Shown in pieces: positions 21,887 to 42,823 of a DNA stretch of 43,653 bases. Both the position numbers and the translations under genes were made by a program. The notes under the pieces are model-generated. The model was not told the origin of the DNA and did not search any database. It saw only the letters and a list, made by a program, of their open reading frames with translations. This stretch comes from Cohnella sp. (GTDB lineage Bacteria; Bacillota; Bacilli; Paenibacillales; Paenibacillaceae). The stretch lies in assembly GCA_028287445.1 (NCBI GenBank), contig JAQBPQ010000113.1, forward strand, positions 1 to 43,653, read 5' to 3'. Position 1 is the first letter of the stretch. Every line of letters begins with the position of its first letter.

Positions 21887-22485
21887 GAGCGGACACGGGA
21901 GAACCAATTCAGAATCAGCAGCGTCATGATCATCCCGAGCATCGACAGCGCAACCCAATATTCCGGCATGAGCGGTGTGACGTGAAGCACGATCGGATCG
22001 CTAAGACTGGCGACCGGAACATCGACCGTCACCGGATGGCCGAAATCGCCGCCTGTCGCAAGCGCGTTGGCCGTTTCCATCACGCCCGACGTGTTTCCTT
22101 CTCCCCCTGATATCCGATTCCACGCAGTATAGAGAAACGCACATCCGAACACAGCGAAAAGAGCGGCAAGCGTAAAAGCCACTTTGCGCCGGAATCCGAA
22201 AGTGAACGCATAGGTACGGCGAACAGCGGGCATATACCAGGACTGCTCGGAATAGATCCGGGTCATCACCTGGCGGCTTACACCATCGGGTACCCGAACA
22301 TAATCCTCCGAATTGTCGGATTCGGACAGCCCGCGGATCAGCTCCGCACTCTCTTCCCACAGTCGGAATTCTTCCGCGCAATCCGCACACTCGGCCACAT
22401 GAAGGTCAACTGCCAGCCGTTCCGGCGAGTCGCCAGGCATATCCCGGTACTCCCCTATCCATTCGGATATTTGTTCGCATTTCAT
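21883..22485 (-). CDS. Zinc-finger anti-sigma factor, membrane-anchored
   Basis: 200 residues. The N-terminus shows the zinc-binding anti-sigma pattern: Cys3, His29, Cys33 and Cys36 (HVAECADC). Two membrane spans follow (about 101-121, AFTLAALFAVFGCAFLYTAW; about 176-196, YWVALSMLGMIMTLLILNWF) with an outer loop between them. Such proteins hold an ECF sigma factor inactive at the membrane and release it on an envelope signal. The start overlaps the sigma gene stop by four bases, so the two are coupled. The signal sensed is unknown. Confidence 0.85.
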   Translation of the reverse strand: MKCEQISEWIGEYRDMPGDSPERLAVDLHVAECADCAEEFRLWEESAELIRGLSESDNSEDYVRVPDGVSRQVMTRIYSEQSWYMPAVRRTYAFTFGFRRKVAFTLAALFAVFGCAFLYTAWNRISGGEGNTSGVMETANALATGGDFGHPVTVDVPVASLSDPIVLHVTPLMPEYWVALSMLGMIMTLLILNWFSRVRS

Positions 22486-23081
22486 CGAAATTTCATCTCC
22501 TCGTACTCCTTCATCATAGCCGGCTCGTTGAAGTACGATTCCAATTGCGTTTTCACGCTGGCTCTCGCCCGGAACAACAACGATTTGACGGAACTGACCG
22601 ATTGATCCAGGATGTTCGCGATTTCCTGATAATCCATACCGTCATATTCCCGGAGAATGAGGGCGGAACGCTGTTTTTCAGGAAGGCTGTTGATCGCTTC
22701 GCGAACCATCGTCACCTTCTCGCTGCGGAGAAGATGTTGTTCAGGTGCCGCTTCCGGAGGTGCGATCGGTATGTATGTGGAATCGTCCAGCGAAACATGG
22801 GCCGTCTTCTGCTTGCGAAGTTCACTCAGCACCGTGTTTCGGGCAATCGTATACAGCCATGTCGAGAAAGAAGCGTCCACTTCCCGAAACGAATGAAGGC
22901 TTCTATAAGCCTTGTAGAACGTTTCGGAACTCAGGTCTTCGGCCAACAGCTCCAGCTTGGCGCTCTTCAACATATGATAGATAAAGGATAAAATCTTTTT
23001 TTGATAACGGTTCATCAAGGTGGCATAAAGATCCACGTTTCCGTCTTTAATTTCACGTATTATTTGTGAGTCGGTCATCAT
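22482..23081 (-). CDS. ECF-family RNA polymerase sigma factor
   Basis: 199 residues. Region 2 is visible in AEDLSSETFYKAYRSLHSF and FSTWLYTIARNTVLSELRKQ (-10 recognition). Region 4 is in SLPEKQRSALILREYDGMDY and QEIANILDQSVSSVKSLLFR (helix-turn-helix for the -35). No region 1 or 3, hence group IV. The ATG at 23079-23081 is chosen over a longer in-frame form because GGGAGG lies nine bases upstream. It heads a sigma/anti-sigma/phosphatase operon. A promoter with extended -10 and a terminator-like hairpin lie in its leader. The regulon is unknown; its low similarity to named Bacillus sigma factors prevents a symbol. Confidence 0.9.
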   Translation of the reverse strand: MMTDSQIIREIKDGNVDLYATLMNRYQKKILSFIYHMLKSAKLELLAEDLSSETFYKAYRSLHSFREVDASFSTWLYTIARNTVLSELRKQKTAHVSLDDSTYIPIAPPEAAPEQHLLRSEKVTMVREAINSLPEKQRSALILREYDGMDYQEIANILDQSVSSVKSLLFRARASVKTQLESYFNEPAMMKEYEEMKFR

Positions 23082-23148
23082 AACCGCGACCCTCCCCCAT
23101 GGCAGGGTGAACGTTCGCAGCCGGTTCATCTATAGGCTTATACCGGCC

Positions 23149-23365: not shown

Positions 23366-23390
23366 AAAAAAAAACCACCCGTTGGGGTGG
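23366..23390 (-). terminator. Strong intrinsic terminator of the small RNA candidate
   Basis: Minus strand CCACCC-CAAC-GGGTGG (23385-23390 with 23375-23380) followed by nine T (23366-23374). Confidence 0.92.
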
Positions 23391-23438
23391 CTGCACAGGG
23401 TGCTAGTATTGGATAGGAGTGGAGAGAAACCATACTGT
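23366..23438 (-). ncRNA. Candidate independent small RNA, about 73 nt, between tyrA and the ECF sigma operon
   Basis: Seen directly: a perfect sigma-A promoter, then about 73 bases, then a strong terminator, with the tyrA operon's own terminator-like hairpin lying upstream of the promoter. No ribosome-binding site or credible reading frame lies between. By hand the RNA folds into three stems: AGUAU/AUACU (23432-23436 with 23405-23409, extended by GG/CC), GCAC-CCU-GUGC (23393-23403) and the terminator. The first stem presents a 17-base, purine-poor loop (23413-23429) holding CUCUCCACUCCU, complementary to Shine-Dalgarno sequences. Such C-rich loops are typical of trans-acting Gram-positive small RNAs (for example RsaE/RoxS). 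No known family was recognised; function is inference. Confidence 0.65.
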
Positions 23439-23444
23439 ACTTTT

Positions 23445-23473
23445 ATTATATGTATCCGTTTTCATTTTGTCAA
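23445..23473 (-). promoter_or_regulatory. Perfect-consensus sigma-A promoter of the small RNA candidate
   Basis: Minus strand TTGACA (23468-23473), exactly 17 bases, TATAAT (23445-23450), with AT-rich sequence upstream. It is the only perfect 12/12 promoter I found in the window. The expected start is near 23438. Confidence 0.88.
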
Positions 23474-23534: not shown

Positions 23535-24674
23535 CTAAAAATGAACCGCATACTTCAAGGATTTCAGCAGCGCAACGGCTTTTTGCAGGTCGCCTTCCTG
23601 CCGGAAGGAAAGACGCAGCACGCCCGGTACGTCTTCCCGGCTCTCGATGATCTGCAAGTTGCTTAAATTGATTCGAGCCTGCCCGAGTTCCGTGGCGATT
23701 TTGCCGATGATGCCCGGATGGTCCGGTACGTCTACATAACATTCGAATAAGGACGTAATCATGCCTTTGCGGCGTTCGGGGAGTTGGCTGCGGAATAATC
23801 CGGCACGACGGAATTCCCCGGCCACCCCGTCCCCGTCCCCGCTCTCGAGCAGTTTCCGGAACTTGTCCATTTCGCTTTGCCAATCCTCCAGCAGCTTCAA
23901 CAGGACTTCCCGATTGCCCAACAGGATATCCCTCCAAATCAGAGGATCTCCGCTCGCAATACGGGTAATGTCGCGAAAGCCGCCAGCCGCAAGACTGGCA
24001 TAAAGCTCATTCGCCTCGTTATACCCGGAAATCTGGTTGACAAGCCCTACCGCGATCATATGCGGAAGGTGACTGATCGCGCCTACGATCTCGTCATGAA
24101 GGACGGCGTCCGTCTTCACGATGTGGGCTTTCGTCCAGCCAAGCAGCGCCTCAAGGCGCTTCACCGCCTCGGTCGGCGTGTTATTCGTCGGCGTCAATAC
24201 ATAATAGGCGTTCTCGAACAAATGAGAGCTCGCCGCTTCCACGCCCGATCGTTCCGAGCCGGCCATCGGATGTCCGCCGATGAAGAAGGCGCCTTGCTGT
24301 TCCAATTTGGCAGCGTGATCCACGACGGACGCTTTCGTACTGCCTACGTCCGTCACGATGCAGCCGGGTTTTAGAGGCAGCCGGGACAGTTCGTCTACAT
24401 AATCCTCCAGTCGCCCGACCGGTACGCACAGAAACAGAAAATCAGCGTCCGAAGCCGCTTCCGCCATAGAGACGGTCGATTGGTCGACAACCCCTCTCGC
24501 CACATATTTCTGCGCGGACGCCGGGTTCACCGAATGACCGACCACAGTCACGCCGGGTTTGTCTTTAAAGCAAAACGCCAGCGATCCTCCGATCAGACCG
24601 ACGCCGAAAATGGCGATCCGGATCGGTGCAACGTCCGGGCCGCTGCGGGTAAAGCCGCCGATTTCTCCACTCAT
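23535..24674 (-). CDS. tyrA: Prephenate dehydrogenase with C-terminal ACT domain
   Basis: 379 residues. The N-terminal Rossmann domain begins with IRIAIFGVGLIGGSLAFCF; then GGHPMAGSERSGVEAA and AISHLPHMIA cover the substrate site. The last 70 residues (CYVDVPDHPGIIGKIATELG onwards) form an ACT domain, which in Bacillus TyrA gives feedback control by tyrosine. It oxidises prephenate to 4-hydroxyphenylpyruvate. The ATG at 24672-24674 is chosen because AAGGTG lies seven bases upstream and the hisC stop is only four bases away. It is the last gene of the aromatic cluster; aroE, which follows tyrA in B. subtilis, is absent. Confidence 0.95.
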   Translation of the reverse strand: MSGEIGGFTRSGPDVAPIRIAIFGVGLIGGSLAFCFKDKPGVTVVGHSVNPASAQKYVARGVVDQSTVSMAEAASDADFLFLCVPVGRLEDYVDELSRLPLKPGCIVTDVGSTKASVVDHAAKLEQQGAFFIGGHPMAGSERSGVEAASSHLFENAYYVLTPTNNTPTEAVKRLEALLGWTKAHIVKTDAVLHDEIVGAISHLPHMIAVGLVNQISGYNEANELYASLAAGGFRDITRIASGDPLIWRDILLGNREVLLKLLEDWQSEMDKFRKLLESGDGDGVAGEFRRAGLFRSQLPERRKGMITSLFECYVDVPDHPGIIGKIATELGQARINLSNLQIIESREDVPGVLRLSFRQEGDLQKAVALLKSLKYAVHF

Positions 24675-24678
24675 TCCG

Positions 24679-25770
24679 TTACACCTTGGCTTCCTGCAGC
24701 ACGGATTCGAGGGCGGCAATCACCTTCCCGTTCTGCTCCGGATTTCCGACCGTGATGCGGATGTGGTTCGGATACCCCCGGTGTCCGGCACGTACGATTA
24801 CCCCTTTGCGGAGCAGCTCGTCGAATACTTCCATGGCGGGGCGTCGTACATCCACCATGATAAAGTTCCCATAGGCCGGGAACGATTCAAGCCCAAGCCG
24901 GTCGAATGCGGCACGCAGCGTACGCAATCCTTCCAGGTTGGCGCGGCGGCAAGAGTCGATAAACGATTGATCTTCCAAAGCGGCGAGTGCGGCAGCCTGT
25001 CCGAAACGGGATGTGTTAAAAGGTTCGCGCACCTGATTGATGGAGCGGATCAGTTCGGGGCGCCCAATTGCGTATCCGATCCGGAGCGATGCCAGCCCGT
25101 AAATTTTGGAGAATGTCCGCAGAGTGATGACATTCGGATATTTCTTCAATACTTCCAGACCGTCCGGGAAAGAGGGATCTTCTATATATTCGCAATAAGC
25201 TTCGTCCAAAACGACCATAACGGATGCCGGAACCTTGGACAAGAACCATTCCAACTCGTCAGCGGTTACGATCGTGCCGGTCGGGTTGTTCGGATTGCAC
25301 ACCCAGATGATTTTCGTTTTGTCCGTTACTTTGTGCAGCATGGAGAACAGATCGTGAGTGCCTTCCTTAAGCGGCACTTCGATAATGACGGCATTCTCGA
25401 TCTGCGCGTTGTGCTTGTATTGCGGGAAGGTAGATTCGGCCATGATTGTTTCATCGCCGGGTGACAGGAACGCACGGGTGATCATCAGGATGATTTCATC
25501 CGATCCTGCCCCGAATATGATCTGCTCGGGTTTAACGCCGTACCGGCGGGCCAAAGCAGCCGTCAATTGTACGGCCGCGCCGTCCGGGTAAATGCTTGTG
25601 TTTTCGATTTCCCGTGCGATGGCTTCCTTGGCTTTCGGCGATGCGCCGTACGGATTTTCATTGGATGCTAGCTTGATCACTTCGCTCAGTCCAAGCTCAC
25701 GTTTCACATCCTCAACAGGTTTGCCCGGCTGGTACACCGGCAGATGGACGATACTCGGTTTTGGTTGCAT
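24679..25770 (-). CDS. hisC: Histidinol-phosphate / aromatic aminotransferase
   Basis: 363 residues, PLP fold type I. SNENPYGASPKA, CNPNNPTGT, VLDEAYCEY and TFSKIYGLASLRIGY are all present, with the PLP Schiff-base lysine at 222. In Bacillus, HisC serves histidine synthesis and also transaminates the tyrosine and phenylalanine keto acids, which explains its place between trpA and tyrA. The ATG at 25768-25770 has AGGAGG upstream. A terminator separates it from trpA; a weak promoter-like stretch lies in that gap. Confidence 0.94.
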   Translation of the reverse strand: MQPKPSIVHLPVYQPGKPVEDVKRELGLSEVIKLASNENPYGASPKAKEAIAREIENTSIYPDGAAVQLTAALARRYGVKPEQIIFGAGSDEIILMITRAFLSPGDETIMAESTFPQYKHNAQIENAVIIEVPLKEGTHDLFSMLHKVTDKTKIIWVCNPNNPTGTIVTADELEWFLSKVPASVMVVLDEAYCEYIEDPSFPDGLEVLKKYPNVITLRTFSKIYGLASLRIGYAIGRPELIRSINQVREPFNTSRFGQAAALAALEDQSFIDSCRRANLEGLRTLRAAFDRLGLESFPAYGNFIMVDVRRPAMEVFDELLRKGVIVRAGHRGYPNHIRITVGNPEQNGKVIAALESVLQEAKV

Positions 25771-42746: not shown

Positions 42747-42823
42747 TGGTCGGAACGGAGAGATTTGAACTCTCGACCTCACCCACCCCAAGGGTGCGCG
42801 CTACCGAGCTGCGCTACGTCCCG
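42747..42823 (-). tRNA. tRNA-Pro, anticodon GGG
   Basis: A full cloverleaf can be drawn on the minus strand: acceptor CGGGACG/CGTTCCG with discriminator A and encoded CCA (42747-42749), D arm around AGCTCGGTAGC, anticodon stem CACCC/GGGTG with loop TTGGGGT (42785-42791), T arm GAGAG/CTCTC around TTCAAAT. The anticodon GGG (42787-42789) reads proline CCC. It stands alone between hbs and mtrB. Confidence 0.95.

Follow-up and report, generated by a model that had tools for sequence, protein, structure and literature searches.

The interval between tyrA and an ECF sigma factor gene in this stretch of Cohnella DNA contains, on the minus strand and in that order, a promoter, a predicted small RNA, and a terminator. 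We have little doubt that this is a small RNA gene and that it is conserved. Our overall reading, which we consider reasonably probable, is that it would encode a trans-acting, CcpA-repressed, C-rich RNA that blocks ribosome-binding sites and is perhaps a counterpart of RoxS/RsaE. This reading draws on the gene itself, its conservation, fold, and autonomy, a cre-like site in its promoter, the presence of a CcpA ortholog, and the lack of families shared with RsaE in the genomes sampled; from these we infer that the RNA is probably transcribed, that CcpA would bind at its promoter, and that it would base-pair with targets and have a physiological role. The window refers throughout to the whole 43,653-nucleotide stretch analyzed.

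In the mechanism we propose, a sigma-A-type promoter in Paenibacillales would be off in the presence of a preferred sugar, with CcpA sitting on a cre site between the -35 and -10 hexamers, and would fire once the sugar runs short. The resulting trans-acting RNA of about 73 nt would present an open CU-rich core at its 5' end, followed by two 3' hairpins of which the second is the terminator. By pairing with purine-rich ribosome-binding sites, the core would block translation of several mRNAs, as has been reported for RsaE and RsaI, and in Bacilli without RoxS the RNA may fill the RoxS/RsaE role. Provided that it is transcribed, this RNA would rank among the very widely conserved small RNAs of the Firmicutes, one that our Rfam 15 scans did not recognize. 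It would also put a small RNA directly under the carbon-catabolite regulator across the Paenibacillales, a large group that includes bacteria of soil, plants, and industry and for which our literature searches found little small RNA work, and its either/or pattern with RoxS/RsaE would offer a testable case of riboregulator replacement.

Promoter, terminator, and genomic context

The features of the locus are collected in Table 1. The arrangement TTGACA-17-TATAAT at 23473-23445 is the sole perfect consensus promoter of the 43.6-kb window, and none of 100 shuffled sequences held one. The TTGACA hexamer is retained in nearly all aligned Paenibacillaceae copies, with TTGACT in two, and the window copy is matched by a covariance model (described below) at 23367-23440. 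A first-pass annotation of this DNA had reported the same promoter and a terminator stem with nine T residues, both of which were recovered here; it left the strand unstated. Its figure of about 73 bases between TATAAT and the stem corresponds instead to the predicted length of the RNA, the actual gap being 52 bases. No ribosome-binding site for the unit was seen by eye, in agreement with that annotation, and the terminator-like hairpin it placed after tyrA does exist, yet is weak, with a 6-pair stem containing four G-C pairs. The qcrABC genes (Rieske, cytochrome b, and cytochrome b/c subunit) also lie downstream of the small RNA, at 18670-16555 on the minus strand.

Table 1. Features of the predicted small RNA gene and its neighbors, in window positions.
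Feature	Position	Strand	Basis or remark
tyrA (prephenate dehydrogenase)	23535..24719	-	neighbor upstream of the small RNA
-35 hexamer TTGACA	23468..23473	-	promoter scan and relatives
cre operator candidate ATGAAAACGGATACAT	23450..23465	-	fills most of the promoter spacer; zero mismatches to WTGNAANCGNWWNCAW
-10 hexamer TATAAT	23445..23450	-	promoter scan
predicted small RNA, ~73 nt	23366..23440	-	start inferred from the -10 box, ~23438-23440
conserved 5' core ACAGUAUGGUUUCUCUCCACUCCUAUCC	23411..23438	-	predicted mostly unpaired; presumed pairing segment
hairpin 1 (GCAC CCU GUGC)	23393..23403	-	stem varies on both sides among relatives
intrinsic terminator: 8-pair stem 23392-23373, nine T 23374-23366	23366..23392	-	
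ECF sigma factor gene	22482..23129	-	neighbor downstream of the small RNA; separate unit

Of 178 distinct copies of the unit, 132 follow tyrA or aroA in the same orientation at a distance of less than 400 nt. A further 24 have tyrA as the nearest downstream marker, but on the opposite strand and facing the RNA, and in the flipped copies listed the sigma gene is upstream of the RNA on the opposite strand. At ten distant loci tested, the upstream gene was aroA in eight, tyrA in one, and a sugar kinase gene in one. The address is thus mostly kept while the direction is not, indicating that the unit behaves as an independent gene. An element without an RNA of its own, serving as part of the tyrA/aroA 3'-UTR or as a leader to the ECF sigma operon, would fit the closeness to tyrA/aroA in the 132 copies. 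We consider this very improbable: the aligned Paenibacillaceae copies have their own promoter, the orientation is flipped relative to tyrA in 24 copies, one family has the sugar kinase gene as its neighbor, and the terminator sits ahead of the sigma gene. Both the tyrA tail and the sigma operon leader were rejected on the orientation and address of the 178 copies. A near-leaderless small peptide beginning at the ATG of the core is the least likely alternative, and we give it almost no weight. An ATG does occupy that position in 161 of 172 copies, but the other 11 have different codons there, the frame ranges from 8 to at least 66 codons (the reading window ended at 66), its residues 9-14 form 119 different strings, and the third codon positions within the core do not vary. 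The frame is 31 codons long in the window copy, rather than the 27 stated previously, and its lack of conservation over the 172 copies led us to reject a 31-codon peptide, in line with the earlier view that no credible frame is present. A 20-codon peptide starting in the promoter spacer was likewise rejected, as ATGTAA occurs there in 15 of the 172 copies. Judged by its sequence features, the locus is a predicted autonomous small RNA gene with its own promoter, its own terminator, no conserved frame, and a conserved fold. The independent gene had been proposed in the first-pass annotation, which missed the cre-like site, how widely the gene is conserved in Bacilli, the tyrA/aroA address, and the mutual exclusion with RsaE/RoxS.

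Conservation and distribution

A 121-nt query covering the promoter and RNA found the block in all 295 genomes sampled from the GTDB family, the nearest named relatives being Cohnella and then Paenibacillus. Loss of the promoter and loop in relatives, which had been named beforehand as the observation that would speak against the gene, was therefore not seen. The unit is carried by 100 of 111 loci examined, the other 11 being sigma-gene loci without it in the flank examined. All 100 of these Paenibacillaceae copies share the same 25 nt (GTATGG...TATCC), and a 28-nt core, ACAGTATGGTTTCTCTCCACTCCTATCC, is all but invariant, while the sequence 3' of the core varies throughout. The 28-nt core is invariant in all 46 copies of an alignment (A1) chosen for diversity out of 80.

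A covariance model built from alignment A1 detects the RNA in 244 of 246 genomes of the order. At E <=0.01 it matched 137 of 299 genomes sampled from the class, some of the weakest by chance; several of 20 weak matches inspected (e.g., L398, L400, L411, and L412) had no core. The exact 20-nt core GGTTTCTCTCCACTCCTATC gave a sharper picture, with one to two copies in each of 113 of the 299 Bacilli genomes and none for the reversed control. This 20-mer spans 22 families of the class sample, and inspection revealed slightly altered cores in five more (f16, f17, f28, f58, and f60), bringing the total to 27. In a phylum sample of 199 genomes, the core with up to one mismatch was found in only four, all from the family of the window; three other Bacilli, from RsaE-bearing families, and 192 genomes outside the class had none. 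Some copies are located away from aroA/tyrA (L175/L202, L201, L203, L204, L180 of family f37, and L182 of f32), some genomes having two; that at L175 follows a gene for an FGGY-type carbohydrate kinase, and those in f37 and f32 are possible paralogs.

Predicted structure of the RNA

The recurrent fold predicted by modeling consists of an open 5' CU-rich core and two variable 3' hairpins, the second of which is the terminator. Over 163 RNAs, the predicted mean unpaired probability of a 21-nt core is 0.75, and the region after the core is predicted to fold as two hairpins in 144. Hairpin 1 takes 60 stem types in these 144 RNAs (e.g., GCAC/GTGC, TGCTC/GAGCA, and ATGGGA/TCCCAT). With 19 of 169 copies set aside for their short linkers, a linker hairpin forms in 144 of 150 copies, compared with 39% of shuffled linkers. 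In alignment A1, both partners have changed in four pairs of the terminator stem. Within the core, RNAalifold predicts a further stem of three pairs that never vary. The first stem of the earlier annotation, in which the 5' end pairs with CUGUGC, is present when the window copy is folded at minimum energy, but it could not be upheld as a conserved stem closing a 17-base loop: only 77 of 163 distinct copies are predicted to make at least four pairs that join the 5' end to the 3' part, and a long conserved first stem was rejected on this count.

A cre-like element in the promoter spacer

The promoter spacer is unusually conserved among relatives, and its variable columns coincide with the free letters of WTGNAANCGNWWNCAW, which we take to be the cre consensus. 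The match to this consensus, ATGAAAACGGATACAT, is the only one in the window, where 0.13 would be expected; one or more turn up in 11 of 100 shuffles. Of 120 Paenibacillales copies, 118 fit the consensus without a mismatch and two with one, a level of up to one mismatch that shuffles reach in 0.6% of cases, and the site starts at a fixed 34-35 nt before the core GG. A CcpA ortholog was found above cut-off in all 12 genomes examined, including that of the window. A cre-like spacer in a genome encoding CcpA makes repression by glucose likely, and the sequence evidence points strongly to CcpA as the repressor of this small RNA in Paenibacillales, which we regard as highly probable. High basal expression, deduced earlier from the perfect promoter, does not follow, as the spacer fits a CcpA operator.

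Outside this group the picture is mixed. One-mismatch cre-like sites are found elsewhere in the promoter in f33, f34, and four of five copies of f37, and such a site is present in all four core-bearing copies of f16; 15 of 18 copies of f32 have a two-mismatch site, a level that about 6% of shuffles also reach. No cre with up to two mismatches was found in f21, f27, f29, f40, f42, f46, and others. The presence of these sites in some families and their absence from others suggest that CcpA control is old or was repeatedly gained, and that it is not universal.

Several other promoter and terminator features were noted. By eye, part of the order has, just upstream of the -35 hexamer, a second cre-like stretch such as GAAAACGTTTACA or GAAACCGTTTTCA (L115, L117, L118, L120-L124, and L127). 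Terminator loops of L134, L145, and L151 (f32) and others hold, again by eye, cre-like sequences such as TTGAATGCGCTTTCAT, which might point to a second site of CcpA action there. Two spacers lacking cre, at one locus each in f42 (L164) and f29 (L165), contain the reverse complement of the core (AGGAGTGGAGAG versus CTCTCCACTCCT) over 12 and 11 nt, with shorter complementarity in L191-L195 (f21); in L174 (f17) an altered core, CCACCCC, is accompanied by GGGGTGG in the spacer. Such spacer complements may serve as an operator, or may shield the core when transcription reads through from upstream.

Possible functions of the conserved core

The core is C/U-rich, mostly open in predicted folds, and has no UCCC motif. 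By eye, its distance from the promoter varies between families, which favors an element acting in the RNA over an operator of the promoter. Pairing of a pyrimidine-rich segment with Shine-Dalgarno sequences in the manner of RsaE/RoxS had been suggested in the first-pass annotation, and an open core of this composition could pair in this way. From its sequence, we lean toward pairing of the core with ribosome-binding sites as its probable function.

Searches for partners were conducted in 37 genomes of the genus. The exact complement of a 12-mer of the core gave 55 matches, 37 of which are the small RNA itself and 18 of which are elsewhere, compared with 26 for the control. A near-full-length complement, with G-U pairs and up to one mismatch allowed, matched the small RNA locus in 37 of 37 genomes and gave 14 scattered one-mismatch matches elsewhere against six in the control. 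These counts, from which no target emerged, argue against a single long-duplex partner; many mRNAs with short, imperfect sites, or else a protein, are the partners left to consider. The 9-mer GGAGTGGAG followed by ATG occurred about nine times per genome, clearly more often than the reversed control, as words resembling Shine-Dalgarno sequences would; the matches listed covered 17 of the 37 genomes. Among these matches, 50 loci were inspected (30 from the search and 20 chosen for recurring spacing), and the 34 frames of 40 codons or more that they contain showed no evident recurrent gene by eye.

Thirteen genes near the small RNA were assessed for pairing in 20 relatives and ranked against 40 permuted cores. 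Five (trpA, hisC, qcrC, trpC, and ypiF) ranked 1-4, within the top tenth, for which the chance probability is 0.006, although the genes are not independent; the remaining eight fell outside the top tenth. This is a mild sign of pairing with ribosome-binding sites, and fits a general liking for Shine-Dalgarno sequences. The pairing segments of trpA, hisC, and trpC shift between relatives. For qcrC, the ribosome-binding site GGAGTGG, which pairs with CCACTCC of the core, is present in seven of 11 genus copies and in none of seven others. On this sequence evidence qcrC and, in part of the genus copies, ypiF are candidate targets and weak leads. The RoxS target sucC did not stand out in 30 genomes, with 65 of 100 permuted cores pairing at least as well.

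Proteins other than those assumed in our reading could occupy either the spacer or the core. LacI-family operators resemble cre, and of 15 matches to the ccpA profile in the genome of the window only one is above cut-off, so that another regulator of this family might be the one that binds the spacer. We consider this quite unlikely, given that the spacer agrees with the broad cre consensus at fixed positions, and that one-mismatch cre-like sites occur in other families and at other promoter positions, as for a global regulator. An invariant core of 20 nt is long for the seed of a small RNA, and a protein could be what binds it instead. Its invariance over 22 families and the lack of a conserved complementary partner in the 37 genus genomes would both suit a binding site for an RNA chaperone or translation factor that the RNA sequesters. 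Protein-sponging RNAs such as 6S and CsrB, however, use structure or repeated short motifs rather than one long unpaired pyrimidine stretch. Available excerpts of two sources also report C-rich unpaired segments in pairing small RNAs of Firmicutes (PMC8464778, PMC9266662), and we judge the protein site to be an unlikely explanation, if a less remote one than another LacI-family regulator. Repression by CcpA and pairing of the core with ribosome-binding sites remain our preferred reading.

Relationship to known small RNAs

Rfam scans of the unit, in a database that presumably includes the RsaOG and FsrA families, gave no match at gathering score, and the relaxed score around the unit gave only chance-level matches. 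At distant loci, there were none at gathering score (20 loci), with sub-threshold matches only at relaxed score (6 loci). The earlier statement that no described family could be recognized is consistent with these scans.

RoxS/RsaE (RF01820) is likewise a small RNA of Bacilli with C-rich unpaired segments and is widespread in its own lineages; a metabolic role is plausible for the Cohnella RNA as well. RF01820 matched 79 of the 299 class genomes, 58 of them over the cut-off and with Bacillus subtilis among the matching controls; it found nothing in the genome of the window, nor in the window itself at gathering score or at E up to 10. When 51 families were compared, 22 had the exact core, 13 had RsaE, 16 had neither, and none had both, with a chance probability of 1.4e-4; counting altered cores, 27 families had the RNA and 13 had RsaE, none were shared, and the probability falls to 5e-6, but these values overstate the case, as related families are not independent and ancestry confounds the comparison. 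At the genome level about 30 joint cases of core and RsaE would be expected. Only nine of the 13 RsaE families have a match over the Rfam cut-off, and f26 rests on a single weak match; with these nine, and subject to the same overstatement, the family-level probabilities are 0.003 for 22 RNA families and 0.0004 for 27. Three covariance model matches in RsaE genomes (G428, G435, and G630) have no core and were counted as chance. We suggest tentatively that the Cohnella RNA may be the RoxS/RsaE counterpart in Bacilli lacking RoxS. It is similarly conceivable, if somewhat doubtful, that it is an ancient core riboregulator of Bacilli in the RoxS/RsaE niche, where a lineage has either RNA but not both, implying that a small RNA of central metabolism was non-orthologously replaced by one that differs in core, location, and transcriptional control. 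Unlike RoxS/RsaE, the Cohnella RNA is shorter, has another core, gives no RF01820 match, and shares no family with it in the sample, and its neighborhood is mostly tyrA/aroA. Its predicted transcriptional control also differs from that by ResD and Rex described for RoxS/RsaE in the excerpts available (PMC8464778).

Control by CcpA has precedents among small RNAs of Firmicutes. RsaI (RsaOG) of Staphylococcus is reported to be under CcpA repression that is lifted when glucose is exhausted, and to repress translation by Shine-Dalgarno pairing, and thus shares with the Cohnella RNA the CcpA repression predicted here and the pairing proposed here (PMC9266662, in part). According to excerpts of another source, RsaI has two G-rich regions and is conserved in Staphylococcus and not in Bacilli (PMC8216469); unlike RsaI, the Cohnella RNA gives no RsaOG match in Rfam scans. 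RosA of Bacillus subtilis is described in the same excerpts as a stand-alone, CcpA-repressed small RNA (PMC8216469), features that the Cohnella RNA shares, its repression being predicted. RosA is reported as 92-225 nt, with longer forms that have three G-rich regions and sponge RoxS and FsrA (PMC8464778, in part), whereas the Cohnella RNA is C/U-rich and occurs in families that gave no RoxS match. FsrA of B. subtilis, an 84-nt RNA whose C-rich single-stranded regions are proposed to pair with ribosome-binding sites and whose targets include qcrA, resembles it in its C-rich segment but is controlled by Fur, according to the same excerpts (PMC8464778), and no FsrA match was obtained in Rfam scans. 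SR1 is also reported there to be controlled in part by CcpA (PMC8464778). By its predicted features, the Cohnella RNA is a putative new family of a known kind, with control like that of RsaI and RosA and a C-rich segment like that of RoxS and FsrA.

Literature searches by sequence and topic found no description of this RNA. RNA-seq of P. riograndensis yielded 27 intergenic small RNAs, most without known function in the excerpts available, and the Cohnella-type RNA may be among them (PMC5670726). The only match of the window to Rfam at gathering score is a tRNA gene at 42750-42823 on the minus strand.
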